Part shown: one piece after another, positions 20,127 through 56,233 of the stretch
Layout: each line of letters begins with the position of its first letter
How positions within the stretch are numbered: the first letter of the stretch is position 1
From: Gammaproteobacteria bacterium
GTDB taxonomy: Bacteria; Pseudomonadota; Gammaproteobacteria; Eutrophobiales; Eutrophobiaceae
Direction: 5' to 3'
Length of the DNA: 64,000 nucleotides
NCBI GenBank assembly: GCA_028279365.1
Contig: JANQNX010000015.1
Span: 1-64,000 of the forward strand
Translations under genes and position numbers: made by a program
Notes under the pieces: generated by a model
Seen by the model: the letters and a program-made list of their open reading frames with translations, nothing else
Told to the model about the DNA's origin: nothing
The model's database searches: none

Positions 20127-23100
20127 ATGAGCGGCCTACGAGATATATTTCTAAAGCAATTTGAAGATAAATGGAGAACTCCTCTACTAGATTTTAGCAG
20201 GAGAATATCTGAGTCTGAATCTGATGTATTAATATTCATGGCCAGAAAAGCAGCTTGCTTATATCACTGTCTAGAAGATTTAAAAATTACGCATTCAAGT
20301 GCAATTTGTACTACAGATTTATCACTAGATGGAGATCTTAGTTGGCTAATAGGTAAGAATGTAGAGTTAGTTGACGACACACTTATCACAGGCACCACCT
20401 TATGTCGAACTATTCAAAAACTTAAAGATACAAATATTTCATCTTTAAAAACGACGGTTTTTTGTGTTGATAGAATAAATTGGTGTAAGGAACTTGTTGA
20501 ACCTAATCAGCCATTTATTCTTGCAGAGCCTCATGAAGTTACTAGCTTTTCGGCTCAGACAGTCCGAGCTATTGGAGTCGTACCTAGGCCATATCTTATA
20601 GATTATCCTTTGTTTAATGGAATAAGAATCTCAAGCGATAGCCTTGACCCAATACTGAATATTACAGGTTGGTATGTTAACGAACTGACTTCTGAAGCTC
20701 AGAGTAAAACTGGTGCTGTAGTGATAACTATGACACCTTCAAATAGCACAACTAAATTATTTAATGAACATTTGGGTTGGCCTTGTTCGGAAATATCCCA
20801 ATTGTTAAAAATTAGATTGTATTCGCGATTACGTCATGGCAATAGGCCTGTATATTTTTGTAGGGCAATGCCAATAGTTGCATTTGATCCAATGACTACT
20901 GCACAGCTAAATCTTATCTGGGAATCATTAGAGCAAACATATGGGGAAGTAATTAAAGAATTAGGAGCTAAACTTAAAACTCAAAAAGAACGGTTGCGAG
21001 TCATTCAGTATATTTGTGGCAAGTTTCTTTTCGATATTTGGTTATCCGATATAAGATTGGCATGCTCTCCTTCCCGAGTTGAGTTTGACATTGATTTTAG
21101 GCAGATAGATTTCACTTTTCCACCTAACGTTAGAAATCATATCGTAGATATATTGCATAGTGATTTGACTTGTCCCTTAGCAAAAGCACCACAGATAATT
21201 GAACATCCTATTCCGAAAAGAGCGTCTAATGTGATAGAAAGTCGTTTTGAAGGTGGAGATCTGCCAAGCATTCAAGCGAAACTAGTCGAACCTTTCGAGA
21301 ATTTATTTGCAGATAAGGAAATCCCTGCAAGAAAACTAGTAAAAGAGCACGGCATTAATGTTTTTGAACTAAAAGAGTATCGCGAAATTATAGATCGTTT
21401 ATCTTATGGGATATCACTACCCGAATTACGCAAATCATTAGATCATATAAATAATCCAGAAGCGGCTAAAGTGATCATACCCATGTTCATTGATGAAGCA
21501 ATAGATAGGGGGATAGCCGTACCAATAATAGTCGATGATGGACAAAATATATATCGTGCCTATCGACATGGCGAAGATGTGAAATTTACCGATGTTGAAG
21601 CAAGATTATCCTGCATAATGATGCAAGAGGTTTGTAAAGTACTAGGATTAAAAACATTACCAAAACTCGTGGTAGAAAAGCTAATCGTTATATTCATAAA
21701 ATGTGGAATATCATTGGGTTTTATTGACCACTGGACTGGTTCACTCGGAGACAGGAGAGTTGTTGGTATTCGCTATTATTTGCAAGGTGCAATAGCACAA
21801 AAATCGCCTGATAAATACCCTTATCATTATTCTCCTGGTGATTCACTATCATCTGTTTTTAAAAGCTGGGGGTATCTTAAAGGTGAAGGGAAGCATGGCT
21901 ACACTATCGCTGAAATTCCAAAAGGAACTCCAACTACAAAAGCATCTGAAAAAACTACTAAAGCATTAGGGGCTACTATTGGATTGGCATTAAAAGAAGT
22001 GCCTAAAAATAAAAGAGACGATGAATTAACTCTAATTTCCACCTGCTTTGGTCCAATGGAAACAGTATCAGCCTTAGCAGCAGAAATTTACTATTTTGAA
22101 AAACATTGGACTGCTCTCTCTAATGTAATATTAGGGAAAAATATAAGTAATAAGTCTGAAAAAATATTGCGTAGTCATGATGTATATCGCGCGGTAAATA
22201 GCGGAATATGGAAATGGAGGAACTATATAAATAATAATACGGAAAATATAATTAATGTTTGGAGACAAAGGTTAGATAATGATTCTGGTGCTGTTTTTAC
22301 TGATGCAATGCTTGAGTCAGCTTTTTCATTGTCTGATACTCAGATTGAGTCTGCTGAGTTAAACAATCTGATAGAAATATGTGGGGTTTGGCTTATTGAA
22401 GCAAATATAGCGTTAAGAAAGCTTAGAATTTGTTTGCTCAAGGAATCAAATCAAAGTTCCGTCAAAGAGCTAAGTTCTCAAGTTGAGACGTTATATAATG
22501 AAAGAGAAAATTATATTTCTTCAATCAAAGACAATTCTTCTCTAGAAGCCCTTGAGTTTCATAATTTAAAGAATGATGAGCTAGCAGATATTAGCGAAGG
22601 TAATTTGCTCGATTCATTATCATTGTCTGCTAATATGATATTAGACAAAGTTGATGCTATGGTTGTCCCTTTTGGAAGACCGAGAAATATTTATAACTAT
22701 CGTCATGTTCTAACAGTTACCTTTTCTCCTAATAAAAATTTAGATGACCTTTACTCACAGGATATATTGAATGAAATAAAAAGTTTAATCAAGGATGCAC
22801 AGAAAAGTAATTTAAATTCTGGATTACATGTCCTTACGCAGCCAAGAGATTTATGGCATGCAGATTATGCAATTGCTTCAACTGGCCAGTATGGTAGAGA
22901 GTTATTAATAAAAGTTATAAAAATATTATTAGACTCTATACATCAAGATGTGAAGTGTCGGTTTTGCTTTTGGGCTGAATTAGAAGCAGATGAACGAGTG
23001 ATAAGAGCTGAAAATTCAAGTGATGTTACTGCTAGAAATTTATTACTTCGAATTGAAGAAGTAAATGAAAAATTGCCTGAAAACATAGCTGAGAATCATG

Positions 23101-24083
23101 TAATTATTTTTTCTAGTAGGAATGATCGCTCACTTAACTCAGTGATAGATGACTTACATAAGCATGTCAAACAAAACTTAAGAAGTATATCTCAAGATGA
23201 CTTGATAATTGATAACCCAATTTCTAGAAAATACAAATTAAACACAATATCACTAGAAAGAGAGGAAAATAGTAAATTAAAAAAATCAGATTTTGATATT
23301 GGGATTATTACAGTTGTCTCTGAGGAAATGAATGCTGTTATTAATTTATTAAAAACGGGTAAAAATTTTAACAAAATACGAGATAATAATTTTGTTTATT
23401 ATAAAGCTGAGTTGCCATCAGAAGGAGATGAGCCTCATAATATTATTGCGACTCAGCAAGTAGAGCAAGGCAATCGTTCGGTTATGACAGCTTACGAAAG
23501 ACTGTGTCAAAATTACAATCCTTCCATGATAATACTTCTAGGTATTGGTGGCTCCATTGATCCAGATATTGAGCTGTGTGATGTTGTCATTGCCGATCAA
23601 GTGATATGGTATGAACAAGCTACTGAGGCAGAATCGGAAATTAAACGTAAGGGAGAATCAACAAAATTAGTAAGCTGGTTAAAAGTCTTATTAAATGAAT
23701 TCTTTTCTGAAAATGGCTACCCATTTGTAATTAATAAAGAAAAACAAAATAGAAAAGTATATTTAGCGCCAATAGGAACAGGCGAAAAAGTAATTAGATA
23801 TCGAGATTCTGAAACAAGGAAATGGTTAAAGTCTTTTAATTATAAATGTATGGCATTGGAAACTGAAGCAGGAGGTATTGCACAAGCATTTTACGAAAAT
23901 GAGAATCGGATGGAAAATGGTATCAAGGGGTATATGATTATTAGAGGAATATCTGATCATGCTGATAAAGATAAAGATGATTCATGCCGATCTTTAGCAT
24001 CTATTAATGCATGTTATATCTTAGAAAAATTCTTGAGTTCAATTCCATCAATTAAAACTTATTTGAACCAGTCAAAAAATTGA
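20127..24083 (+). CDS. Large fusion: PRTase-like N-terminus, nucleoside phosphorylase-like C-terminus
   Basis: A 1318-residue soluble protein. Residues about 30-140 carry a type I phosphoribosyltransferase PRPP loop, VDDTLITGTT (82-91). Residues about 1055-1310 match the PNP/MTA-SAH nucleosidase fold: FDIGIITVVSEEMNAV, ILLGIGGSIDP, ALETEAGG and RGISDHAD. The roughly 900 residues between hold no motif I can name; 780-830 looks coiled-coil. Related PRTase and phosphorylase modules have been described as effector or nucleotide-sensing parts of bacterial conflict systems, so an antiviral role in nucleotide metabolism is plausible but inferred. No predicted partner overlaps it. The gene is AT-rich and stands in island cargo. 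Confidence 0.75.
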   Translation: MSGLRDIFLKQFEDKWRTPLLDFSRRISESESDVLIFMARKAACLYHCLEDLKITHSSAICTTDLSLDGDLSWLIGKNVELVDDTLITGTTLCRTIQKLKDTNISSLKTTVFCVDRINWCKELVEPNQPFILAEPHEVTSFSAQTVRAIGVVPRPYLIDYPLFNGIRISSDSLDPILNITGWYVNELTSEAQSKTGAVVITMTPSNSTTKLFNEHLGWPCSEISQLLKIRLYSRLRHGNRPVYFCRAMPIVAFDPMTTAQLNLIWESLEQTYGEVIKELGAKLKTQKERLRVIQYICGKFLFDIWLSDIRLACSPSRVEFDIDFRQIDFTFPPNVRNHIVDILHSDLTCPLAKAPQIIEHPIPKRASNVIESRFEGGDLPSIQAKLVEPFENLFADKEIPARKLVKEHGINVFELKEYREIIDRLSYGISLPELRKSLDHINNPEAAKVIIPMFIDEAIDRGIAVPIIVDDGQNIYRAYRHGEDVKFTDVEARLSCIMMQEVCKVLGLKTLPKLVVEKLIVIFIKCGISLGFIDHWTGSLGDRRVVGIRYYLQGAIAQKSPDKYPYHYSPGDSLSSVFKSWGYLKGEGKHGYTIAEIPKGTPTTKASEKTTKALGATIGLALKEVPKNKRDDELTLISTCFGPMETVSALAAEIYYFEKHWTALSNVILGKNISNKSEKILRSHDVYRAVNSGIWKWRNYINNNTENIINVWRQRLDNDSGAVFTDAMLESAFSLSDTQIESAELNNLIEICGVWLIEANIALRKLRICLLKESNQSSVKELSSQVETLYNERENYISSIKDNSSLEALEFHNLKNDELADISEGNLLDSLSLSANMILDKVDAMVVPFGRPRNIYNYRHVLTVTFSPNKNLDDLYSQDILNEIKSLIKDAQKSNLNSGLHVLTQPRDLWHADYAIASTGQYGRELLIKVIKILLDSIHQDVKCRFCFWAELEADERVIRAENSSDVTARNLLLRIEEVNEKLPENIAENHVIIFSSRNDRSLNSVIDDLHKHVKQNLRSISQDDLIIDNPISRKYKLNTISLEREENSKLKKSDFDIGIITVVSEEMNAVINLLKTGKNFNKIRDNNFVYYKAELPSEGDEPHNIIATQQVEQGNRSVMTAYERLCQNYNPSMIILLGIGGSIDPDIELCDVVIADQVIWYEQATEAESEIKRKGESTKLVSWLKVLLNEFFSENGYPFVINKEKQNRKVYLAPIGTGEKVIRYRDSETRKWLKSFNYKCMALETEAGGIAQAFYENENRMENGIKGYMIIRGISDHADKDKDDSCRSLASINACYILEKFLSSIPSIKTYLNQSKN

Positions 24084-26191: not shown

Positions 26192-26746
26192 ATGAAACAT
26201 ATAGGACGAATATTTGACAAGGTCAGTGGTCATCTTTTTAAAAGAAATAAACATACAAAAGAAGATCATCCAGACACAGAGAGCTTGTCGGATGAAGCTC
26301 TGAATGAAAGTGTTGCGGATAATAAAGAACCTGAAGAAGATACAAAAAATAATCGTTTTGAAGGTAAAGCTAAAATTCAGGAAATGAAAAACATGCAGGG
26401 ATCTTGGGGCGAAGATGATGATGGCCTTGACCCAAGAGTAAAAAAGATAAGTTTTTTTGAAGAAGAACAGGAAAGATTGAGACTTGAAAGAGAAGAGGAA
26501 GAAAGATTAAGGCAGGGATTAACAGACTTGCAAAAGCCTAAATATTTACTGTTTCTCGAAGCAATACAGGCCGATAAGGAATTGGATGAAATATGCCGAA
26601 AAGATAGAGAAATGCGATTTTTAAGAGACGCTAGAGAAGAAAGAAGAAAAGAACGCTTCGATGAAGCACTTGGAAAAATCAAGGCGCAAGAGGAATGTGA
26701 AAAAGAAAATGAAAAGCACAATCCTGGTCACGGATTTGAGAGGTAG
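26192..26746 (+). CDS. Hypothetical charged coiled-coil protein (paralogue of the one at 34359)
   Basis: A 184-residue protein dominated by Glu, Arg and Lys, with a predicted coiled coil over residues 85-165. Residues 143-163 (from FLRDAREER) share 11 of 21 positions with residues 129-149 of the protein encoded at 34359-34850, and both end in Glu-Arg after a polar tail. One copy lies beside the relaxase side of the mobilization region and the other beside the coupling-protein gene. An accessory role in DNA processing is therefore possible, but inferred. Transcription converges with the 107-residue gene. Confidence 0.65.
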   Translation: MKHIGRIFDKVSGHLFKRNKHTKEDHPDTESLSDEALNESVADNKEPEEDTKNNRFEGKAKIQEMKNMQGSWGEDDDGLDPRVKKISFFEEEQERLRLEREEEERLRQGLTDLQKPKYLLFLEAIQADKELDEICRKDREMRFLRDAREERRKERFDEALGKIKAQEECEKENEKHNPGHGFER

Positions 26747-27164: not shown

Positions 27165-28571
27165 TTAACGACCACCACGTTCATTATCGCGTTTTTGTTG
27201 TTCTGTCATTTTTTTGATTTTGTTTAAATTCTTTTTCAAACGTAAATCACGTTCATCATCACCTTTGGAAGGTTGCGTATACAAACGTTCGCGTTCCAGT
27301 CGGCGCAGTTTTGCATTAAGTGAGCGAGTTTCTTTTTGATTGACTAGCTCGTTGCTTTCTTGTCGGCGTTGAAAATCAATTAATTCTGCGCGGTGTCGTG
27401 CGTTTAGTGCAGCCCGGTCATGTGTTTGGCTGCGTTTCTGATGTTCTTTTATTTTCTTATCTGCAAATCGTGCGATGGCATGCATACCTGTCACACGATA
27501 TAACGTCGCTGCTATTCCCGGTGGTTGTCGTAAAATGCGTTTTAGTAATGACGATTGGTTTTGTGATTGTTGATGCACGATTTTTAATGCATTTTTTTCT
27601 TCTTTATGCCGGGCTTTTATTTTTGCTAGTTCTTCATTCAGTATTTTTTGACGATTAACCTGAATAACTTTTAAGTCATGTGCCCACTTGTCTGATGCTA
27701 TCTTGAAATCTTCTTTTAATTTAGCGGAAATATTATCCTTTTTTAATTCGATATATTTTCTGGTTTGTTCAATCGAGCGTAATTTATCGACGGGATAGGC
27801 TTTATTCAGAAAAGCATCGACAGTTTTTTTATTCACGCTTTTATCATTAATCATGCGCGGTAAACTCCGCATGATTTCACCAAAACGGTCGAGTAATACG
27901 TAACGGTTCTTGTCACCCTGACATAAGTAATAGCCTGATGCTTCTAGCCCTTCATAAAATGCTTTTGGACTATCGCTACCACGCCATACTTCAGTAATGG
28001 CCGCCATGTGTTGTGCTTTCGAGATCCCGGTTCTGTCTTGTTGTTGTTTTTCATTTGCATCAGGTTGCTTGTCTTTATTCTTAAAACGGTCTTTGCGGTT
28101 GTTGTTTTTTAGGCCGTCTGGTAATTCCAGGTTATGGTCTTTGGCAAATTCTTGGACAAGTGTGCGTAGGTTTTGGTGGTCATAAGACATTGGTACAGCA
28201 ATCATCTTATCCACGTCGATACGCGACCATGCAACATGACAATGTTCACGGCCTTCTTTGACATGAAACACAATTGCTCTTGGTTGTTTTTGCAGTTTCA
28301 GTCTTTCTTCGGTGCGTTCAATGAACTCTAGATATTGTTCGCGGCTAAGAGGGCCGTTTGTCTCTAACCAAGGATTGATAGAGAGGGAGTAAAGATACTG
28401 AGTGCATTGTGTCCCTTCCGAAACACATTGCCACTCAGCAAACGCACCGTGCAGGTCTTTGGCAACTGTGCCACGCACATCATGGACTTCGACTTTTTCA
28501 TTGTCGAATTCATTCAGTAAATGTGTGGCGAGTTGTTGCCCACCTGCGCGCTGATTACCCTTGGTAATCAC
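27165..28571 (-). CDS. Relaxase / mobilization nuclease (MOBP-like)
   Basis: A 468-residue protein. The N-terminal 170 residues form a relaxase domain: ITKGNQRAGGQQLATHLL, a CTQYLYSLSINP strand, and the three-histidine metal motif with His103, His110 and His112 in EHCHVAWSRID. A Lys/Arg/Glu-rich helical C-terminal half follows. It would nick oriT on one strand and pilot the DNA to a conjugation channel. No tyrosine lies in the motif I segment, where many relatives have one, so the catalytic Tyr is unassigned. It overlaps the MobC-like gene by 4 bp, and a predicted oriT lies upstream of that gene. Confidence 0.88.
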   Translation of the reverse strand: MITKGNQRAGGQQLATHLLNEFDNEKVEVHDVRGTVAKDLHGAFAEWQCVSEGTQCTQYLYSLSINPWLETNGPLSREQYLEFIERTEERLKLQKQPRAIVFHVKEGREHCHVAWSRIDVDKMIAVPMSYDHQNLRTLVQEFAKDHNLELPDGLKNNNRKDRFKNKDKQPDANEKQQQDRTGISKAQHMAAITEVWRGSDSPKAFYEGLEASGYYLCQGDKNRYVLLDRFGEIMRSLPRMINDKSVNKKTVDAFLNKAYPVDKLRSIEQTRKYIELKKDNISAKLKEDFKIASDKWAHDLKVIQVNRQKILNEELAKIKARHKEEKNALKIVHQQSQNQSSLLKRILRQPPGIAATLYRVTGMHAIARFADKKIKEHQKRSQTHDRAALNARHRAELIDFQRRQESNELVNQKETRSLNAKLRRLERERLYTQPSKGDDERDLRLKKNLNKIKKMTEQQKRDNERGGR

Positions 28572-28927
28572 GGTTTCTTGCCGTGCGTTTCAAACCAGAT
28601 AACTCGCATCTCCATGATGTCGATGGCGGCGGCCTCAATCATGCCCTCAAGCGTTTTTCCAAGATTGGCGGCATGGGCGATCTGGTTAATATTACTGCCT
28701 ATCTTGCCAAGCTGTCCCAATAGCTGGCAAGCGAGTTTTCTGTCGAAAGGGGCAACCCGTGCCTTGCGAGGTGGCGGCATATCCAGACATTGTGAACGTA
28801 CTAAATCGGCCACGTTCATACCTGCGCGATTTGCTCGGTTTTGCATTTCCGCCCACTCGTCTTCCGAGAAACGGAACGACTTCGCCAGAGTGCGTTTTCG
28901 GGTGTTGCTGCCGCTTCGTGATGCCAT
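28568..28927 (-). CDS. mobC: MobC-like mobilization accessory protein
   Basis: About 119 residues. An N-terminal ribbon-helix-helix-like segment (TLAKSFRFSEDEWAEM) is followed by the MobC signature LLGQLGKIGSNINQIA. Such proteins bind oriT and help the relaxase open the strands. The frame is open 35 codons upstream into the repeat region, but the ATG at 28927 follows GGAGG by ten bases and starts a typical MASRSGS N-terminus. Its stop overlaps the relaxase start (ATGA). Confidence 0.85.
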   Translation of the reverse strand: MASRSGSNTRKRTLAKSFRFSEDEWAEMQNRANRAGMNVADLVRSQCLDMPPPRKARVAPFDRKLACQLLGQLGKIGSNINQIAHAANLGKTLEGMIEAAAIDIMEMRVIWFETHGKKP

Positions 28928-28953
28928 AAAACTCAATCCTCCAATCAGTGCGT

Positions 28954-29170
28954 CCAGGGACAGTTCCTGGTCGGGATACAACGTCGAAACGTTGGCCCAA
29001 GGTTTGGTCCAGGTGGAGAGGGGCTTCTCCAAACCCTGGTCGATGTGTTTCTAAAGAGAGAGCGAAATCTCTCTATAGTCGGAATCCAATGCCGAGACAT
29101 TGGCCCTGGTTTAGTCCAGATGGAGTGGGTAACTCCAAACTCTGGTCGTGCTGCAACATCGACATGTTGC
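28954..29170. repeat. Imperfect repeats forming covarying stem-loops upstream of mobC
   Basis: Two related units start at 28970 (GTCGGG) and 29078 (GTCGGA). Each has a small hairpin (CAACGT/ACGTTG at 28979-28994; CCAATG/CATTGG at 29086-29103) and a larger one (CCAGG..CCTGG with GGAGA/TCTCC at 29009-29039; CCAGA..TCTGG with GGAGT/ACTCC at 29116-29145). The stems differ in sequence but still pair. Extra hairpins lie at 28954-28970, 29055-29074 (7-bp stem) and 29153-29170 (7-bp stem, CGAC loop). It may be protein-binding DNA of the oriT region or a structured RNA leader. Confidence 0.75.
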
Positions 29171-29234
29171 ACGGTGTGTGAGGCTTGATGCCAACACGCA
29201 CCGTAATCGTTACTTGCCCATTTATTGGCTTAGT

Positions 29235-29310
29235 GACGCCCCGAGGGGGTTGCGGGCAGGGACTGCCACAACAAGAATGCGCGGTATAACAGCGCACATC
29301 CTGCGAGCCT
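29235..29310 (+). other. Predicted origin of transfer (oriT) with IncP-like nic motif
   Basis: CATCCTG at 29297-29303 matches the nic core of IncP-type origins (ATCCTG, cut after the G). It is immediately preceded by an inverted repeat, TGCGC (29278-29282) and GCGCA (29292-29296), as in that group. The relaxase and MobC genes lie to the left on the minus strand, the same relative layout as in RP4. The predicted nick is between 29303 and 29304 on the plus strand. The remaining sequence to 29519 is AT-rich and shows no gene. Confidence 0.65.
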
Positions 29311-29519
29311 ACATAATAGGCGATGTTATACACTGAGAATAGAGTAAAAATATCAGTATTTCCATTAAATAATCACTAAAAGACATAAGCCAATATCTCT
29401 ATAAAGCTAGATATTATCGTAATAATATTTAAATAGAGTACCTGCAAGAAAAAAGGGATAATCTGAATTAATACAGTAGTTGTCGTATAAAGCACATATC
29501 AATTAATGGAGAAAATGTT

Positions 29520-34358: not shown

Positions 34359-34850
34359 CTAACGTTCAATATCGTTATCTTTTGTATTTCCGTTTTGTTC
34401 AGCGATTTTGTTAAATGCTTTTTGGAAATGTTCTTTTTTTCTCTGTTTTCTCGCAGAGTGTAAAAAAGTCATTTCTTCCTCTTTATGCTGTTTGTCTAAA
34501 GCCTGTTGTTCATTCAAGTCTTTTTGTAACGCATCGTTTCTTCCTGCTTTGCGAATTTCATTTTCTGATAACGGTGCATTTATTTTGCCGCCAGGGTGAT
34601 TGCTTGGGCGTAAATAAGTCTTTTGTCCGACTATTCTGTTTTTGTTCGTTTCGGTTTCAACATTTTCTTTCCATTTATCGTGTTGGTCTTTCTTGAGTTG
34701 TTGTTTTTCAGTTTCTTGTCTGTCCAGTAATTCAGCATATTCCTGCTGCTGCGGTTCGGTTAATGCTGCAATGAGGTGTTGACGTTCACCTTCCTCGGAA
34801 TTGGCAGGATCTTCAAATTCTTTATGCAATCTATCGATATCTTTAGACAT
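34359..34850 (-). CDS. Hypothetical charged coiled-coil protein (paralogue of the one at 26192)
   Basis: A 163-residue, highly charged protein rich in Glu, Lys and Gln. Residues 129-149 (from FLHSARKQR) share 11 of 21 positions with residues 143-163 of the protein at 26192-26746. The middle contains KTYLRPSNHPGG, not found in the paralogue. It is divergent from the coupling-protein gene, with 137 bp between starts, so the two may share a control region. A relaxosome or coupling accessory role is inferred from position only. Confidence 0.65.
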   Translation of the reverse strand: MSKDIDRLHKEFEDPANSEEGERQHLIAALTEPQQQEYAELLDRQETEKQQLKKDQHDKWKENVETETNKNRIVGQKTYLRPSNHPGGKINAPLSENEIRKAGRNDALQKDLNEQQALDKQHKEEEMTFLHSARKQRKKEHFQKAFNKIAEQNGNTKDNDIER

Positions 34851-42802: not shown

Positions 42803-44215
42803 TTACATGAAGTTTCTGAAATCATAGATACTGTCTACCATATCAGGATTTTGCTGGATTATGTCAGCAAAGCTTTTTGAATAGACAAGTGTCACGGGTA
42901 ACTTCTTATAGAGAGTATTATTGTTCCAGTCCATTTTTGTAAGGCTTAAAATGGCTGAACATGTATCATGCCATCCGCCATTTCCGGTAAATCTTCGAAT
43001 AAGAACTGGTGATGGCGTGGGCTTTAAAGCCCCTTCTTTATAAATACTATAATTTGGTTTTGTTAAATGAACTCCCTGTACACTCCCTTGCGTCCAAAGT
43101 AATGCTTCATTTTTATCAATTGGTAAATAGATTCCACGTTCTATTGGGTAGTTAAATGGTTTTGGTGGTGATTTATAATCAAACCTTATTGCCTTCCAGT
43201 TAGTCCCCTTTACTATTTGCACAAGTTCAATTTCTGTACTGTCACGAAAACTATCTAGCGCACCCAGTATTTCTTCTTCTTTGAATTGAGTGTTTTTATG
43301 AATTGTTATTTTGCGAGGCACTCTTCCAAAGTGTCCACTTTGATATATTTCAAGACTTCGAGATAAAACAGATTGCATCTCATAATAGGTAAGATATGGG
43401 TTCTTTTGGTTGTCCTGAATAAATTCTTTTGCATCATAAGCAACAAACCGAAAACCTGTGCCATCAGGATCAAATACCTGACTGCAACATGTAGTATATG
43501 AATTGCCATCCCCATCATGTTTCATGGCATAGCTTATACCGATAAATGCTTCATCATTGCTAAGTCCAGTTAACTTCCATGGAATACCGCCCGCTTTAGA
43601 ATATATTGCAACACTTAAACCCCACATTACATTTGCGCGGCAATTACGTTCTAAACTTGCTTGGCGAATAATCTGTATTGGTATATTAGAAGGGGCACAA
43701 TAGGCTTTTAAATAATCATGAAAGTTAAAATCGTCTACCTCAAAACATGAAGCCCAGGTAGGAGGAAGATATATAAGTGCTACGTCAAAACTACTTCTGA
43801 GTGCTTTTAATGAACCTATGTTTTGAAATAATCCTCGTGCTAATTCAACTTTTTGTTCTGGATTAGCGAACTCATCAAGATTATCTGGCAGAGTTATTAC
43901 AAGATTTGGATCTTGTTCTTCTATTGGAATTCGAAAAACACTATTAAACCCAGGGTATTTAGGGTAGTAATTTGGTATCTCTTTTGCGGAAGCTGGTTTT
44001 TTTAATTCTTCTACTAATTTCGTTAATTTAGGTAGGTCACTTTGTCTGGCAAGCAATGCAAAACGGATTTTATTTGGATAATCAAATTTTTCGCTATAAG
44101 GGCCATGTTCGATTAATCCTGACAAGGGGTGTCTATGGGTTTTCCTGTTGTTAAATAGGAGATCTGGTTCTGTTATTTTTGAATAGCCACCAAGCTCAGC
44201 AGATATACTGTTCAT
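42803..44215 (-). CDS. Short prokaryotic Argonaute (MID-PIWI)
   Basis: A 470-residue protein with the size and layout of short pAgo: a MID domain in the middle (around [12 protein letters not shown]) and a PIWI domain to the end ([28 protein letters not shown]). N and PAZ domains are absent and the catalytic DEDX tetrad is not visible, as expected for short, inactive pAgos. With guide RNA, such proteins sense foreign DNA and switch on the partner effector. The start overlaps the SIR2-APAZ gene by 4 bp (ATGA). Confidence 0.85.
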
Positions 44216-45975
44216 GAGTTCGCCCCCCTTGAAAAAGCAGTTCTACTGCCTATTTCAAATTTAGGGTTCTCAATATCTGTTCCATCATCAAATGCAGTAA
44301 CAGTTACAGTCGTATTACGTTCCTCTGTACCTATTATGATTTTCACCCAAGCATCCAGAATTTCATTATATTTATTATTAAAACGATCAGAGCGTCGTTT
44401 ATCTATGAAGTCTCTTGCTAATTTTCGAGCTTGGGGAGGCCATATCCAAAGATCAGGTTCTAAAAGAAGCCAATACTTTCCATCTTTTTGATCAATAGAA
44501 ATACGCACAGACTCTGCCCAGCCTACCTGCTGTTCGTCAGCATCCGGCGTTGTTTGAAAAATTAAATCCTTCAGCTCACCGTCTGTATTTTCTGTAACGT
44601 CAGATAGGGGTTCAATATTACCTATGTCAATCGCATGTGGATCAATAATTAAATAAGATTTTTTATATCTCGTTCTTGATAATAGTGGTTTGTCTCTTGC
44701 AAGAGCAACACAAAGTGCTTCTTCAAGAAAACCTTTGACGAATAGGTTATTTGGAGCCTGAATATTAGTAGGAATATCTCTGCTATCAATAGAAGTTAAT
44801 TCTCCATTAAAAGTAGTTTTTAAATAATCTTCCTTACCCCAACACCAAACGGTATCTGATTTTGTAAATATAAGGTTATGTTCTGTATCAAAACTTGCTT
44901 TTCTTAAATCACCCCATTCTTTTGGCTGCTTAAAACCTAATGATTGACACTTTTCAGGTATAGATAAAATAGGCAATGCATTAAGTCTTATAAGAGGTTT
45001 TCTATTGCCAGCAGATGACATTTCAATGTTCACAGATGTTAATTGAGATTTGCGTACTTTTTTGTCCAGTTCTTCTGGCTTGCTTTCTATGTTGCGCCAA
45101 AGCCTTAGCATTAATGCATCAAAAGTTTCTATCTCTACATATTCAGCATTAATATTTTTTTCGTGTGCTTTAGAAAGGAGATCGTCAACGAGTGGATTAA
45201 TTTCAGAACCTTTTATCCCTGTCCAATAAAGACCATGTGGAAAAGGATTTTCGGTATCAAGAACACGGTGAAATAATTGCATCACGCTCTTATCTCGACC
45301 GCTATAGCCGGTCACAATAAAACCGTATCGATTGGCCGCATTGACAAGACACTTTGAAAGTTCCTCATTTTGAGTTGCTAAGTCGGTCGAGAGATTTTTT
45401 AAACTGTCATAACGAAAGTCTCCGTGAAGTTTGCAATATAGAGGAAATTCTTCGTTATTTAGTGCTTGATTTGCGGCATGAGAACCTTCCAAGTGATAAG
45501 CAGAAATAGATTGATCCCCTACTTCAGCCAATGCTTTTTCAATTACACTATCAAAGTTCGTTGTAAATATTACACGGCTAAGCTCAGAAGATAATAAAGC
45601 ACCAAGAACACGATTACCTACTGATAGTGATAAGCGTTCTTCAGATAGGAATGCTTTTAAATAATTACGTTGCCGTTCTTTATCATCACCAAAGATTTTT
45701 TCAAAATAGGTGGAATATTCTTCCTCTGCCCATAATGGGGGAAACCCTTTTGCATCCATAAAGCTTTGAATACGAGCTTTAACAGCTTCATTTTGAATGT
45801 CTTGTCGAGAGATATCCTGATTTTCTTGTTGGCAGTAATATCGCCTTTTTAGATCCCAGATAACATCAGTTGCAGTTGGCAAGCCAGAAGATCTTGATGT
45901 TCCTGCACCAAGAAACCAAGCAAAGTTATTTGGTTTTTCTGTGAATATACTGGTTAACTGAATTTGATTAATCAA
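44212..45975 (-). CDS. SIR2-APAZ NADase effector of a SPARSA defence system
   Basis: A 587-residue protein. The SIR2 domain (about 1-290) has the NAD loop [11 protein letters not shown] (21-31), TTNFD (Asn140) and LHGDFRYD (His184). The C-terminal half (about 320-580) fits the APAZ domain that binds short Argonautes. In characterised SIR2-APAZ/pAgo systems, sensing of invading DNA causes NAD depletion and death or growth arrest of the infected cell. The gene is first in the operon and is divergent from the HTH gene across a 177-bp promoter region. Confidence 0.9.
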
Positions 45976-46884: not shown

Positions 46885-49119
46885 ATGAATCATTTTATGG
46901 CGCGGCTAATTTTTTGTTTTTTTGCTGAAGATACTGATATTTTCAATGAAAAGGATTTGTTTACAAACACTGTTGCCCAGATGAGTGAAAGCAATTCATC
47001 TAATACTCATGAGATTGTCAGTGAAATTTTCTGCGCTATGAACACTAAGCAGGAAAAACGAAAAAAAGAAGGTGTTCGTAATTGGGTGGATAAGTTTCCT
47101 TACGTAAATGGTGGTTTATTTTCAGGTAGTACAGAAGTTCCAGTTTTTACCAAAATTGCTCGTTCCTATCTACTTCATGTCGGTAGTTTGGATTGGACGC
47201 AGATTAACCCGGATATTTTCGGTTCAATGATACAAGCTGTCGCCGATGATGAAGAGCGCGGTAGTTTGGGAATGCATTACACCAGTGTGCCTAATATATT
47301 GAAAGTGCTTAATCCACTTTTTTTGAATGACCTCCGTCATCAACTAGAGAAAGCAGGTAACAATGGGAGGAAGTTATTAAACCTCAGAAAGCGAATGTCT
47401 AATATCCGTGTTTTTGATCCTGCGTGTGGGTCAGGTAATTTTCTCGTTATTGCTTATAAGCAGATGCGCGAGATCGAAAGCGAAATAAATATTCGTCGTG
47501 GAGAAGCTAAAAGAATGAGCGATATTCCTTTAACAAATTTTCGAGGTATAGAAATTCGTGATTTCCCAGCTGAAATAGCACGTTTGGCTTTAATAATTGC
47601 AGAGTACCAATGCGATTTGCATTATCGTGATCAAAAATTGGCACTTGCAGAGTTTTTACCGTTAGACACAGAAAATTGGATTACCAGTGGGAATGCCCTG
47701 AAGTTAGATTGGCTTTCGATATGTCCACCTACTGGGACATCTGTAAAGATGGTGGCCGATGATCTTTTTGAGACACCATTAGAACAGGCAGAAATAGATT
47801 TTGAAAACGAAGGTGGTGAAACATATATTTGTGGTAATCCACCATATCTTGGTGGAAAAGGACAATCAAAGGAGCAAAAGGACGAGCTTACGATTGTTTT
47901 TGATGGTCAAAAGAAAATTGGAGAGCTAGATTATGTCTCTGGTTGGCTGGTAAAAGCAGCCAAATATGCATTGGAAAGTAAATCAAAATCTGCTTTTGTT
48001 TGTACTAGCTCAGTAAATCAGGGTGCCCAAGTACATCAGCTTTGGCCAAAAATTTATAATTTAGGTTGTGAAATTAAATTCGCAGATCGTTCATTTAAAT
48101 GGTCTAACAATGCAGCCAATAATGCAGCAGTCATTTGCTCTATAATTGGGTTAGGAATAAAAAGTAATGATGAAAAATTTTTATATACTGATGAAATAGT
48201 CCAAAAAGTGAATCTGATTGGGCCATATTTAATACCAAATACTGAAGTTATAGTTTATCAATCTTTATCTCCTTTAAGTAATTTACCCAAAATCCTAACT
48301 GGGAATAGTCCGTATGATGGAGGAAACTTGTTGCTTTCAAGTGAAGATAGTAAAAGTCTTCTTGAAGAATATCCAAAGGCTAAGAAATTTGTAAAAAAGA
48401 TTTTTGGATCACAAAATTTTATTAATGGAGAGCAAAGGTATTGTTTATGGATTAAGGATGAAGAACTATCTTTAGCAAATCAAATTCCCCCCATTCTAGA
48501 AAGAATAGGTAAGGTCAAAGAAAGTAGGGAGTCAGGAGGTGAGGTTGCTAAAACACTTGCAAAATCACCCCATAAGTTCCGATATACTCATCAAGCAAAA
48601 CAGTTGTCTATCATTATACCAAGAGTATCTTCAGAGCGTAGGGAGTACATACCATTTGGAGTCTTGGACAATAATTGTATTATCTCGGACTCTGCCCAGG
48701 CAGTTTATGATCCAGAGTTATGGGTGATTTCAATTTTACTCAGTAAAATGCATATGAGTTGGGTTAAGATCATTTCTGGGAAATTGAAAAATGATATTAG
48801 ATACTCATCAGCTCTTTGCTATAACACCTTTCCAATACCGAAACTAACAGAAAAAAACATTAAAGATTTAACAAATTCTGCGGAAGCGTTGCTTCTTGCA
48901 AGAGAATCCCATTTTCCAGACACACTAGCAGAACTCTATGATCCTGAGAATATGCCTGAAGATTTACGTAGAGCACATGAACGCAATGATGAAGTTTTAG
49001 AAAGAATCTATATTGGTCGTCGCTTTAAAAATGATACAGAGCGATTGGAAAAATTGTTTGATCTTTATACACAGATGACTAGCAAAAGTTCATCTGAGAA
49101 GGAAAAAGTGGTGAACTAA
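46885..49119 (+). CDS. Class I SAM-dependent DNA methyltransferase, main part
   Basis: A 744-residue frame in phase with the N-terminal piece. The SAM-binding motif DPACGSGNFL lies at about residue 176, and the catalytic NPPY at about 317 (CGNPPYLGG) marks an N6-adenine methyltransferase of the MmeI/YeeA type. A target-recognition-like region follows (about 430-650). No ribosome-binding site precedes the ATG at 46885, so restart of translation is doubtful and the methylase may be inactive. The helicase gene starts 1 bp after its stop. With the nuclease gene behind, a modification-restriction type defence is likely. Confidence 0.85.
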   Translation: MNHFMARLIFCFFAEDTDIFNEKDLFTNTVAQMSESNSSNTHEIVSEIFCAMNTKQEKRKKEGVRNWVDKFPYVNGGLFSGSTEVPVFTKIARSYLLHVGSLDWTQINPDIFGSMIQAVADDEERGSLGMHYTSVPNILKVLNPLFLNDLRHQLEKAGNNGRKLLNLRKRMSNIRVFDPACGSGNFLVIAYKQMREIESEINIRRGEAKRMSDIPLTNFRGIEIRDFPAEIARLALIIAEYQCDLHYRDQKLALAEFLPLDTENWITSGNALKLDWLSICPPTGTSVKMVADDLFETPLEQAEIDFENEGGETYICGNPPYLGGKGQSKEQKDELTIVFDGQKKIGELDYVSGWLVKAAKYALESKSKSAFVCTSSVNQGAQVHQLWPKIYNLGCEIKFADRSFKWSNNAANNAAVICSIIGLGIKSNDEKFLYTDEIVQKVNLIGPYLIPNTEVIVYQSLSPLSNLPKILTGNSPYDGGNLLLSSEDSKSLLEEYPKAKKFVKKIFGSQNFINGEQRYCLWIKDEELSLANQIPPILERIGKVKESRESGGEVAKTLAKSPHKFRYTHQAKQLSIIIPRVSSERREYIPFGVLDNNCIISDSAQAVYDPELWVISILLSKMHMSWVKIISGKLKNDIRYSSALCYNTFPIPKLTEKNIKDLTNSAEALLLARESHFPDTLAELYDPENMPEDLRRAHERNDEVLERIYIGRRFKNDTERLEKLFDLYTQMTSKSSSEKEKVVN

Positions 49120-49120
49120 C

Positions 49121-51163
49121 ATGGAACATAAATCTATACCCTCGGTATCCGTCAATTACGCTTGTACTGGCAGCTCAAAAAAATCTAATGAGTTGGGTAT
49201 GCGGGTTATGCAAGAGCGAGCGTATGAAAAACGTGGTGAGCAATATCTACTGATTAAGTCCCCTCCTGCTTCGGGTAAAAGTCGAGCTTTGATGTTTGTT
49301 GCTTTGGATAAACTAAACAATCAAGGCATTGATAAAGCACTGATTGTCGTACCCGAAAAGTCCATTGGTGCCAGCTTTAATAATGAACCGTTAACTGACC
49401 ATGGTTTTTATTGGGACTGGAGTGTAGAGCCAAAGTGGAATTTGTGTAATGCCCCCGGTGAGGATGGCGGCAAGGTTAATTCTGTAAAGTCATTTCTTGA
49501 AAGTGAAGATAGAATTTTAGTTTGCACTCATGCCACATTTCGTTTTGCAGTTGAGCGTTATGGTTATGAAATATTTGATAACTGTCTTATTGCAGTTGAT
49601 GAGTTTCATCATGTCAGTGCCAATCCAGATAATATTCTGGGAAACCAGTTAGCTCAGTTTATTGCCAGAGATAAAGTCCATCTCATTGCAATGACCGGCT
49701 CATACTTTCGGGGTGATGCTGAAGCAGTATTGACACCAGAAGATGAAGCTAACTTTGACACTGTTACTTACACTTACTACGAGCAACTAAACGGTTACGA
49801 ATATCTGAAAACGTTAGATATTGGTTATTACTTTTATTCAGGTGCTTATTCGGATGAAATTTTGAGTGTATTAAACCCGAATGAAAAAACAATAATTCAT
49901 ATCCCTAATGTTAATTCAAGGGAAAGCACAAAGGATAAGCACAAAGAAGTAGAACATATTCTGCACGAGTTAGGGGAATGGCAAGGCACAGACCCAGATA
50001 CTGGTTTTCATTTGGTTAAAACCAGTGAAGATCGAATTCTGAAAATAGCTGACTTGGTAGATGATGATGCTAAGCGTGATGTTGTATCCGCTGCACTCAA
50101 AGACCCTGAGCAAAAAAATAACAGGGATCATGTCGATATTATTATCGCTCTGGGCATGGCTAAAGAAGGCTTTGACTGGATATGGTGCGAACACGCCCTA
50201 ACAGTTGGCTACCGTTCTAGCCTAACAGAGATTATCCAGATCATAGGACGGGCAACTCGTGATGCGGAAGGTAAAACCCATGCGCGATTTACGAACCTGA
50301 TTGCTGAACCTGATGCAGAGGAAGACGCGGTTGTTGATGCAGTCAATGACACGCTTAAAGCAATTGCTGCCAGCCTTCTTATGGAACAGGTACTTGCGCC
50401 CAAGTTTAATTTTACGCCAAAGAGATCAACAAACACCGCAATTGAAGGCTATGATTATGGAGAAGAAGGTTATAAACCAGATCAAACAAACATAGGTTTT
50501 AATGAAAGCACGGGTCAATTCCAAATAGAGATTGATGGTTTAGTAGAGCCTAAAACTGAAAACGCACAGCGCATATGTAATGAAGATCTTAATGAAGTCA
50601 TCACCGCATTTGTTCAGGATAAAACTTCTTTAGAACGAGGTTTGTTTGATGAAGAAACTGTGCCTGAAGAATTAACACAGGTACGCATGGGCAAAATTAT
50701 AAAAGATAAATATCCAGAGCTTGATGAAGAAGATCAGGAAGCTGTAAGGCAACATGCTATTGCTGCGCTGAATCTTACGCAGAAAGCTAAAGAAATAATT
50801 ACATCAGATGAAAATATTGAGGCTGGTAATACCGCATTGATTGATGGTGTTAGAAAGTTTGCAATGGATGTGCGCGACCTGGAAATTGATCTTATTGATA
50901 GCATCAATCCATTTAACGAGGCCTACTCTATCCTTGCTAAGTCAATGAGTGAGGAAAGTCTTAAGCAAGTTGCTGCTGTTATTGCTTCAAAGAAAATTAG
51001 CTTGACACACGAAGAAGCAAGAGAGCTTGCAAAACGAGCAATAAAATTTAAAGAAGAGCGTGGGCGCTTACCTGACATTACCTCAGCTGATCCTTGGGAA
51101 AGGCGAATGGCTGAAGGTATAGCCTTCTTGCAAAATAAGACAACGGAGGATACCGGTGGCTGA
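49121..51163 (+). CDS. SF2 DEAD/DEAH-type helicase
   Basis: A 680-residue protein. Walker A SPPASGKSR lies at about residue 47, the Walker B box is VDEFHH at about 158, MTGSYFRGD follows as motif III-like, and the second RecA domain ends with GRATRD (motif VI) near residue 385. The C-terminal 250 residues are helical and charged. It would move along DNA with ATP and deliver it to the methylase or nuclease of the same cluster. It overlaps the GIY-YIG gene by 8 bp. Confidence 0.88.
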   Translation: MEHKSIPSVSVNYACTGSSKKSNELGMRVMQERAYEKRGEQYLLIKSPPASGKSRALMFVALDKLNNQGIDKALIVVPEKSIGASFNNEPLTDHGFYWDWSVEPKWNLCNAPGEDGGKVNSVKSFLESEDRILVCTHATFRFAVERYGYEIFDNCLIAVDEFHHVSANPDNILGNQLAQFIARDKVHLIAMTGSYFRGDAEAVLTPEDEANFDTVTYTYYEQLNGYEYLKTLDIGYYFYSGAYSDEILSVLNPNEKTIIHIPNVNSRESTKDKHKEVEHILHELGEWQGTDPDTGFHLVKTSEDRILKIADLVDDDAKRDVVSAALKDPEQKNNRDHVDIIIALGMAKEGFDWIWCEHALTVGYRSSLTEIIQIIGRATRDAEGKTHARFTNLIAEPDAEEDAVVDAVNDTLKAIAASLLMEQVLAPKFNFTPKRSTNTAIEGYDYGEEGYKPDQTNIGFNESTGQFQIEIDGLVEPKTENAQRICNEDLNEVITAFVQDKTSLERGLFDEETVPEELTQVRMGKIIKDKYPELDEEDQEAVRQHAIAALNLTQKAKEIITSDENIEAGNTALIDGVRKFAMDVRDLEIDLIDSINPFNEAYSILAKSMSEESLKQVAAVIASKKISLTHEEARELAKRAIKFKEERGRLPDITSADPWERRMAEGIAFLQNKTTEDTGG

Positions 51164-54943: not shown

Positions 54944-55028
54944 TGGTGCGGGTGGAGAGAATCGAACTCTCACTTCCGAAGAAACGGGATTTTGAATCCC
55001 GCGCGTCTACCAATTCCGCCACACCCGC
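54944..55028 (-). tRNA. tRNA-Leu(CAA), complete copy carried by the island
   Basis: A full 85-nt class II tRNA with CCA encoded. The acceptor strands GCGGGTG and CACCCGC pair perfectly. The anticodon arm is CGGGA-TTCAAAA-TCCCG, giving anticodon CAA, and the T arm closes GAGAG/CTCTC. The variable arm equals that of the split host gene, but the acceptor stem differs, so it is a separate gene and not a restored host copy. It reads UUG codons and could replace the disrupted host tRNA. The GATTTTGAATC core is present at 54988-54998. Confidence 0.95.
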
Positions 55029-55045
55029 AAAGCGTAGCATTATAA

Positions 55046-56233
55046 CTATTTTCTTTTTGTTGTTTTAGTTTTTTTCTTAGCCTTCTTTTTGGAGGGACGT
55101 TTCCGCATTTTGTTAATTTCAGCAGTATCAATTGTGTTCTTTAAATGCACGGCATAATATTTTTCAATCATTTCAACACTGGTACGACAATTTTTTGCAA
55201 CTTGATAAATATCTACGCCTTCTAGTAGCCTTAAACATATATAAGTATGTCTTAGGCTATAAGCGGTACGTCTATGACCGTCTCGGTCAAATTTTAGTTT
55301 TGTTTCATCGAGAATGTTATTAAGAAGTTCACGGTGCGTGATAGGAAATAACCGTTCGGTTTTATCTTTGGGCTTATTTCGTTCGATAAGCCTTTTAAAA
55401 GGGAGCACTGCGCCGGGCATGCTTTTACAAAAACCAACACCGCGTTTCCCTCTAACTTCAATCTCTAGTATTTCATCATCAATGGCATCATCATGAACGA
55501 TGTCTACATCGCGAAACTCAAGCCTTGCTGATTCATCTGGTCTAAGGCCAGTATTAGCCATAAATAAAACATAGTCGTGTAGTTGTTCACAACTCCATTG
55601 CCAGCGTTTACCTTTTGATTGCAATGCACGTTTTCGTGTAGCTGTATAAAGCGTTTTATATTCTTTGGGCGAAAACCATGCACGATGCGAAATTTTACCT
55701 GACGTTTTATAGGGCGCAGAAAGGTCGGGCAGGGATGATAACCAGCCATGTCGAACTGCTGTTTTTAATACTTGGCGTAAAGCGACAATCTCTTGATGCA
55801 TTGTACTATGAGCAGGGGGCTTGCCTGTTCTAGAGTTTTCTCGTCTGAAAATACGATAGTCTTGTACTTTACCTGATGTGATTTCAGATAAACCCATTTT
55901 TCCGAAGTAGGGTAGTAGATGAACACGCAATCGATCTTTTGTTGTTTGAATATACTTTGGGTTTCGTTCACCTTCAGTAAGAATTTCAAACTCATGTTCA
56001 AATTGTTTAGCTGCATCTTTAAAAGTCTTTTCAGATTTGAGTATGCCAGCACGGTTCTTTCCTCGTAGCTCTATATACCATTCTTCTGCAAAGTCTTTCG
56101 CTTTAAACAAACTTGTTTCTTTTGTACTGGTGCGACGGTTTTTCCCAGCAAGATATGTAGCGCATTGCCAGTAAGGACTTCTATCGCGTTTGTAGAGGTT
56201 AACTTTACCTCCCATTATTGTGTGAGCAGTCAT
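55046..56233 (-). CDS. Tyrosine integrase of the island
   Basis: A 395-residue recombinase. The N-terminal 60 residues form an arm-binding domain, about 75-170 a SAM-like core-binding domain, and the rest the catalytic domain: Arg in NTGLRPDESARLEF, Lys in EVRGKRG, YSLRHTY (Tyr in the first position of box II) and the nucleophile in EKYYAVH. The C-terminus is a Lys-rich tail. It lies between the rescue tRNA and the right junction, with its 5' end towards the attachment site. It should catalyse insertion at the anticodon loop of tRNA-Leu(CAA). Confidence 0.93.
   Translation of the reverse strand: MTAHTIMGGKVNLYKRDRSPYWQCATYLAGKNRRTSTKETSLFKAKDFAEEWYIELRGKNRAGILKSEKTFKDAAKQFEHEFEILTEGERNPKYIQTTKDRLRVHLLPYFGKMGLSEITSGKVQDYRIFRRENSRTGKPPAHSTMHQEIVALRQVLKTAVRHGWLSSLPDLSAPYKTSGKISHRAWFSPKEYKTLYTATRKRALQSKGKRWQWSCEQLHDYVLFMANTGLRPDESARLEFRDVDIVHDDAIDDEILEIEVRGKRGVGFCKSMPGAVLPFKRLIERNKPKDKTERLFPITHRELLNNILDETKLKFDRDGHRRTAYSLRHTYICLRLLEGVDIYQVAKNCRTSVEMIEKYYAVHLKNTIDTAEINKMRKRPSKKKAKKKTKTTKRK

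Follow-up and report, generated by a model that had tools for sequence, protein, structure and literature searches.

A conserved array of hairpins on the predicted nicked strand of a MOBP-type oriT, a candidate single-strand initiation site

Several structured sequences described near the transfer and maintenance functions of mobile elements come close to the locus reported here. The traJ-II RNA motif (RF01760) is structured and precedes a gene whose product binds oriT. Folded sso sites, such as sso1 of ICEBs1 and the sso of pBAA1, occur in RCR plasmids and in ICEs; structure matters more than sequence in them, and they stay functional when their sequence is altered with the structure preserved (PMC4595007). 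Frpo sites lie in the leading region and hold paired sequences resembling -35 and -10 elements (PMC11541004). STAXI (RF01728) consists of tandem structured repeats with UUCG-type loops on one strand, and is suspected to work as ssDNA in mobile DNA (PMC2864571). Finally, the Salmonella genomic island 1 (SGI1) encodes, between oriT and a mobilisation gene, the sgm-sRNA, which is needed for transfer (PMC9299015). For hairpin arrays at oriT we found no description in the open-access literature. Here, we describe such an array from the window, by which we mean the whole 64,000-nucleotide stretch of gammaproteobacterial DNA that was analysed.

The array resembles each of these systems in part. Like the sso sites, it is built of strand-specific stem-loops that depend on structure, tolerate sequence change and would lie on the single-stranded DNA of the element (PMC4595007); however, ICEBs1 sso1 and the pBAA1 sso belong to Gram-positive systems and comprise three stem-loops, whereas the arrays described here lie beside nic, have a fixed hexaloop and reach about ten modules. 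With the Frpo/ssi ssDNA promoters it would share folded T-strand DNA near the oriT of a conjugative element, but it is situated on the trailing side and has no -35/-10-like pairs. STAXI likewise combines tandem structured repeats, strand-specific UUCG-type loops and residence in mobile DNA, yet it is a pseudoknot repeat found near ssb and antirestriction genes, and the array has no Rfam match. The sgm-sRNA occupies a comparable position from oriT to the mobilisation gene, but it is a demonstrated RNA with its own promoter, in an unrelated system whose relaxase is of the tyrosine-recombinase type. The traJ-II model matched neither the window nor the related loci L004-L008; the only Rfam family to reach its gathering score in the window was tRNA, and the remaining matches were unrelated and sub-threshold. 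A model of the array module (R2, see below) matched neither the F-G intergenic stretch of phiX174 nor ColE1, and by this measure the array is unlike the known primosome assembly sites of the phiX174/ColE1 type, although the same function achieved through a different structure is conceivable.

The mobilisation module and the parts of the array are listed below, each with its evidence; coordinates are those of the window.

27165-28571, - strand: MOBP-type relaxase gene (Pfam PF03432, E 3.6e-12; HxKxGRxHxH motif conserved in relaxase alignment A2)
28568-28927, - strand: mobC, NikA-like/MobC accessory protein (Pfam PF21983, E 1.5e-16; PF05713, E 3.6e-7)
28954-29272, + strand: hairpin array next to oriT, lying between mobC and the nic inverted repeat on the predicted nicked (T) strand (folds against shuffles)
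28954-28970, + strand: hairpin CCAGG-GACAGTT-CCTGG (sequence, fold)
28968-29044, + strand: unit 1, two stem-loops (sequence, alignment to unit 2, covariation)
28979-28994, + strand: unit 1 stem-loop CAACGT-CGAA-ACGTTG
29009-29039, + strand: unit 1 stem-loop CCAGG-T-GGAGA-loop-TCTCC-A-AAC-CCTGG
29051-29078, + strand: hairpin CTAAAGAGAGA-GCGAAA-TCTCTCTATAG, a typical array module (model R2)
29076-29150, + strand: unit 2, two stem-loops (sequence, alignment to unit 1, covariation)
29086-29103, + strand: unit 2 stem-loop CCAATG-CCGAGA-CATTGG
29116-29145, + strand: unit 2 stem-loop CCAGA-T-GGAGT-loop-ACTCC-A-AAC-TCTGG
29152-29171, + strand: hairpin TGCAACAT-CGAC-ATGTTGCA (sequence, fold)
29172-29203, + strand: hairpin CGGTGTGTG/CACGCACCG with AGGCTTGATGCC inside, comparable to hairpins with GGYTCGATRCC in relatives (sequence, relatives)
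29249-29272, + strand: nic-proximal hairpin GTTGCGGGCAG-GGA-CTGCCACAAC (sequence; relatives have GGGGGATGCAACGGGGGC..GCCCCCTTGC at the same place)
29272-29304, + strand: nic inverted repeat TGCGC-N9-GCGCA, followed by the predicted nic CACATCCTG↓C at 29303/29304 (sequence; same element across 33 loci)

As in other MOBP origins, a relaxase gene of the MobA/VirD2 family (PF03432) adjoins an accessory gene with NikA-like/MobC domains, an inverted repeat adjoins a predicted nic of the YATCCTG↓Y type, and relatives are arranged alike. We placed the predicted nic by this MOBP consensus, which we take to give the + strand as the one that is nicked and transferred rightwards; the non-coding gap of about 375 bp from mobC to the predicted nic would thus form the trailing end of the T-strand. 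The mobilisation module is flanked by two coiled-coil-like ORFs (26192-26746, + strand; 34359-34850, - strand) that resemble each other at their C-terminal ends and have no Pfam match, and the GGYTCGATRCC hairpin of the relatives' arrays resembles a tRNA T-arm.

A preliminary description had reported two units about 108 bp apart whose stems are preserved by paired changes, amid further hairpins with CGA-type loops, and had concluded that the structure itself is selected. The units are indeed spaced 108 bp from start to start and share ~75 alignable columns, and the compensatory changes are as described: CCAGG/CCTGG is matched by CCAGA/TCTGG, GGAGA/TCTCC by GGAGT/ACTCC, and CAACGT/ACGTTG by CCAATG/CATTGG. 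Additional CGA-loop hairpins lie nearby, at 29051-29078 (GCGAAA) and 29152-29171 (CGAC). Against dinucleotide shuffles, the stretch from 28950 to 29330 folds with z scores of -4.6 to -6.8 on both strands, by RNA and DNA parameters, and the array holds six hairpins of at least 6 bp where 0.57 are expected. When 11 related copies were aligned with MAFFT, 89.8% of cells were paired and the covariation held: both sides had changed in 9 of 17 pairs (shuffle mean, 4.3), with a covariation score of 0.332 against a shuffle mean of 0.193 and slid controls of 0.04-0.14. The loss of covariation on adding homologues, which the preliminary description had named as its refutation, thus did not occur. A second test selected no stems and scored every NCGANA motif for perfectly complementary 5-bp arms. 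Within the array, such arms flank 33 of the 58 nicked-strand motifs, in 16 different arm sequences, but none of the 10 motifs on the opposite strand; nor do they flank any of the 169 motifs found in relaxase genes. This result also supports covariation, and with it the claim of selected structure. In unit 1, 29001-29007 could instead pair with 29029-29035 in a 7-bp helix, GGTTTGG/CCAAACC, which is incompatible with part of the main fold and of which unit 2 retains only a part; a pseudoknot or alternative fold of this kind is possible, but by eye the helix is lost in relatives.

Relatives were found through the relaxase. Alignment A2 matched 80 loci in bacterial genomes and 4 in viral contigs, whereas a single-sequence query gave no match in either scan. 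At the DNA level the window resembled no plasmid searched, no homologue of the window DNA was present in 53 genomes of its own family, and no homologue of the relaxase was found within its own order; the sole match among the own-family genomes (L003) falls inside an apparent trxB gene and was discarded as chance. Distant plasmid-borne relatives of the relaxase have, by eye, hairpin-rich stretches in the same position. A covariance search of related mobile elements, which the preliminary description had advised, was carried out with model R1, built from the two window units only: it matched the nicked strand of the same nic-mobC interval at ~28 of the relaxase-relative loci (best E 2e-8), spanning Alpha- and Gammaproteobacteria.

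Thirty-three loci, including the window, have the nic inverted repeat in common (pattern CAAGRTGTGCGY..RCGC..CTTG). Their intervals from nic repeat to mobC contain 133 hairpins of at least 6 bp, compared with 18 expected from dinucleotide shuffles, a density of 14 per kb. Densities elsewhere were 3.2 per kb on the far side of nic, 2.4 within the relaxase genes and, upstream of the 57 relaxase homologues that lack the nic repeat, again 3.2. The loops are strictly polar: the NCGANA hexaloop occurs on the nicked strand only, and CGAA is found there (TTCG on the mobC strand) 40 times and never in reverse. On the nicked strand, the module consensus reads ATGGGT-TCCAAAGGGAGA-NCGANA-TCTCCCTTTTGG-TCG-ATGGGT; stems vary freely, while the NCGANA loop, a mismatch or bulge within many stems and the GGTCGATGGGT-like linkers are kept. 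Individual loci carry from one or two hairpins (L008, L040, L041, L017) up to about ten (L015, the module of pcai42B). In the relaxase tree the array and the nic repeat travel together, and both are absent from a well-supported clade of 58 members. This clade (most of L048-L100) comprises mostly genome contigs, and its relaxase-like genes possibly encode relaxases serving another role.

Module model R2 was run on 15 whole genomes, 14 of carriers and the window's own, and on 5 plasmid records. Matches with E<0.02 lay in oriT-mobC intervals only, among the first-look candidates, at most 150 per genome, that were scored, a procedure that weak copies elsewhere could escape; weaker matches outside these intervals look like chance. 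In the window's own genome the best match was the hairpin at 29051-29078, at an E of 9e-6 for a copy that is itself part of the model. The preliminary description had left the choice between an oriT-associated structure and an RNA regulator. The former is supported, since the array is found nowhere but beside the nic inverted repeat and is missing where the repeat is missing; the latter is not favoured, the mobC strand being depleted of G-U pairs and the nicked-strand sense having no promoter signal, as detailed below.

These features are best explained by a structured ssDNA element in the trailing part of the T-strand, most likely either a single-strand initiation site or an array that recruits the relaxosome. 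Tentatively, we favour the former as the likeliest single reading, in which the two units are modules of a conserved nicked-strand hairpin array acting as an sso/ssi site. The array sits just 5' of nic and would therefore be displaced and transferred after the rest of the T-strand. Its hairpins would form once the nicked strand becomes single-stranded; stems are free to vary as long as pairing is kept, with loop, mismatch or bulge and linkers retained, as recognition of folded single-stranded DNA by proteins would predict. On becoming exposed close to the T-strand 3' end, the array could recruit a priming factor, and synthesis of the complementary strand would start there and run towards mobC, relaxase and the remainder of the element. 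Strand-specific, conserved secondary structure, evident from loop polarity and covariation, is characteristic of sso/ssi sites, and the array, locked to one strand and situated where the T-strand trails, agrees with a single-strand origin in both place and polarity. We infer that the array works as ssDNA in the cell, and that it recruits a priming activity and not one of relaxosome assembly or termination. Several points count against such a role: nic is placed by consensus, arrays of up to about ten modules exceed known sso/ssi sites, some relatives have only one or two hairpins, a -35/-10-like ssDNA promoter is lacking, and R2 has no match in the phiX174 stretch or ColE1. If the proposal is correct, widespread mobile elements of Alpha- and Gammaproteobacteria possess a conserved, structure-defined oriT part, short portable DNA modules would make it directly testable how these elements begin second-strand synthesis once transferred, and the modules would offer a covariance-model handle for finding oriTs. 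It is also possible, though less likely than not, that the array represents an undescribed class of oriT component, namely a strand-locked set of interchangeable ssDNA hairpin modules at the T-strand trailing end, read by protein through NCGANA and serving a conjugation step beyond those of the known sso, Frpo and relaxosome sites.

The nearest rival to priming is relaxosome docking or termination. Here the folded nicked strand would be a platform for relaxase, MobC and coupling protein, with a role in docking, pausing or the termination of transfer. The array abuts the nic repeat directly, is tied to a relaxase lineage and varies in module number as would a cooperative binding array, all of which suit a platform. 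MobC/NikA-type proteins, however, bind duplex DNA next to nic, whereas selection here, judged from sequence, appears to act on folded single strands, and we regard this explanation as somewhat unlikely.

Priming DNA must also be weighed against structured RNA, and here the wobble pairs are informative. With a consensus built from Watson-Crick pairs only, G.T was enriched on the nicked strand (49 columns vs 27 on the mobC strand, p=0.015). For calibration, RNase P RNAs were passed through the same pipeline as disjoint triples: the array gave 47 wobbles on the nicked strand (G.T) and 31 on the mobC strand (equivalent to A.C on the nicked strand), and the control split 111:35 towards the RNA strand, so that, within a test that draws on related sequences, a simple null and one control family, RNA of the mobC strand is rejected (p=1e-7) and RNA of the nicked strand is disfavoured (p=0.02), its wobble direction being right but its bias weaker. 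An early mismatch count (19 A.C vs 2 G.T on the mobC strand) was dropped for this test because many of its cases represent one conserved mismatch position.

A structured RNA with the sense of the nicked strand, and hence antisense to the leader of mobC, might aid transfer or control mobC from a position like that of the SGI1 sgm-sRNA. The G.T enrichment has the direction that such an RNA requires, and SGI1 sets the precedent of an RNA between oriT and a mobilisation gene that is required for transfer (PMC9299015). Against it stand the shortfall of wobble pairs relative to a real RNA family, the failure of Rfam to match and the lack of any sigma-70-like signal from mobC towards nic (z 0.14, SE 0.2), and we consider it unlikely. 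Folded single-stranded T-strand DNA fits best; the assignment to the nicked strand is fairly well supported, and the preference for DNA over RNA of that strand depends on the p value of 0.02.

More doubtful still is that the array functions as the 5' leader of the mobC-relaxase mRNA, controlling expression through RNA structure from a promoter beyond nic. Sigma-70-like sequences beyond nic (mean z 0.94, SE 0.19), in most loci 25-37 nt past the nic repeat, do point towards mobC, so that transcripts would cross nic and the array, and the resulting RNA would have UNUCGN loops; no promoter signal was detected inside the array in either direction, and the scan of the window found none above chance. 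A functional leader predicts enrichment of G-U on the mobC strand, and the depletion observed (31 vs 47) leads us to reject it; transcription probably includes the array in a mobC leader, but selection acts on the opposite strand. Ordinary REP-like repeats or terminators, or functionless products of drifting decay, are highly improbable, for although intergenic DNA often holds GC-rich hairpins, a general consideration that drew no support from the tools used, such repeats fit neither the strict 40:0 loop bias, nor the compensatory changes, nor the restriction of the modules to oriT loci and their conservation across families.

The window has other features of mobile and defence DNA. A tRNA-Leu adjoins an integrase gene (54944-56233), and a search of the window for an exact repeat of its 3' end, which could mark the ends of the element, gave none. 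At 46885-51163, an MmeI-type restriction-methylase-like protein, whose profile match begins only at position 189, is followed by a DEAD/ResIII helicase-like gene, and at 20127-24083 a 1318-aa protein matches at its C terminus the PADLOC 'Effector, PN-superfamily' and PDC-M60C models. A short pAgo (PADLOC pAgo_I, E 1e-192) adjoins a SIR2-domain partner (E 5e-201) at 42803-45975, and together they form a pAgo/SIR2 defence pair.
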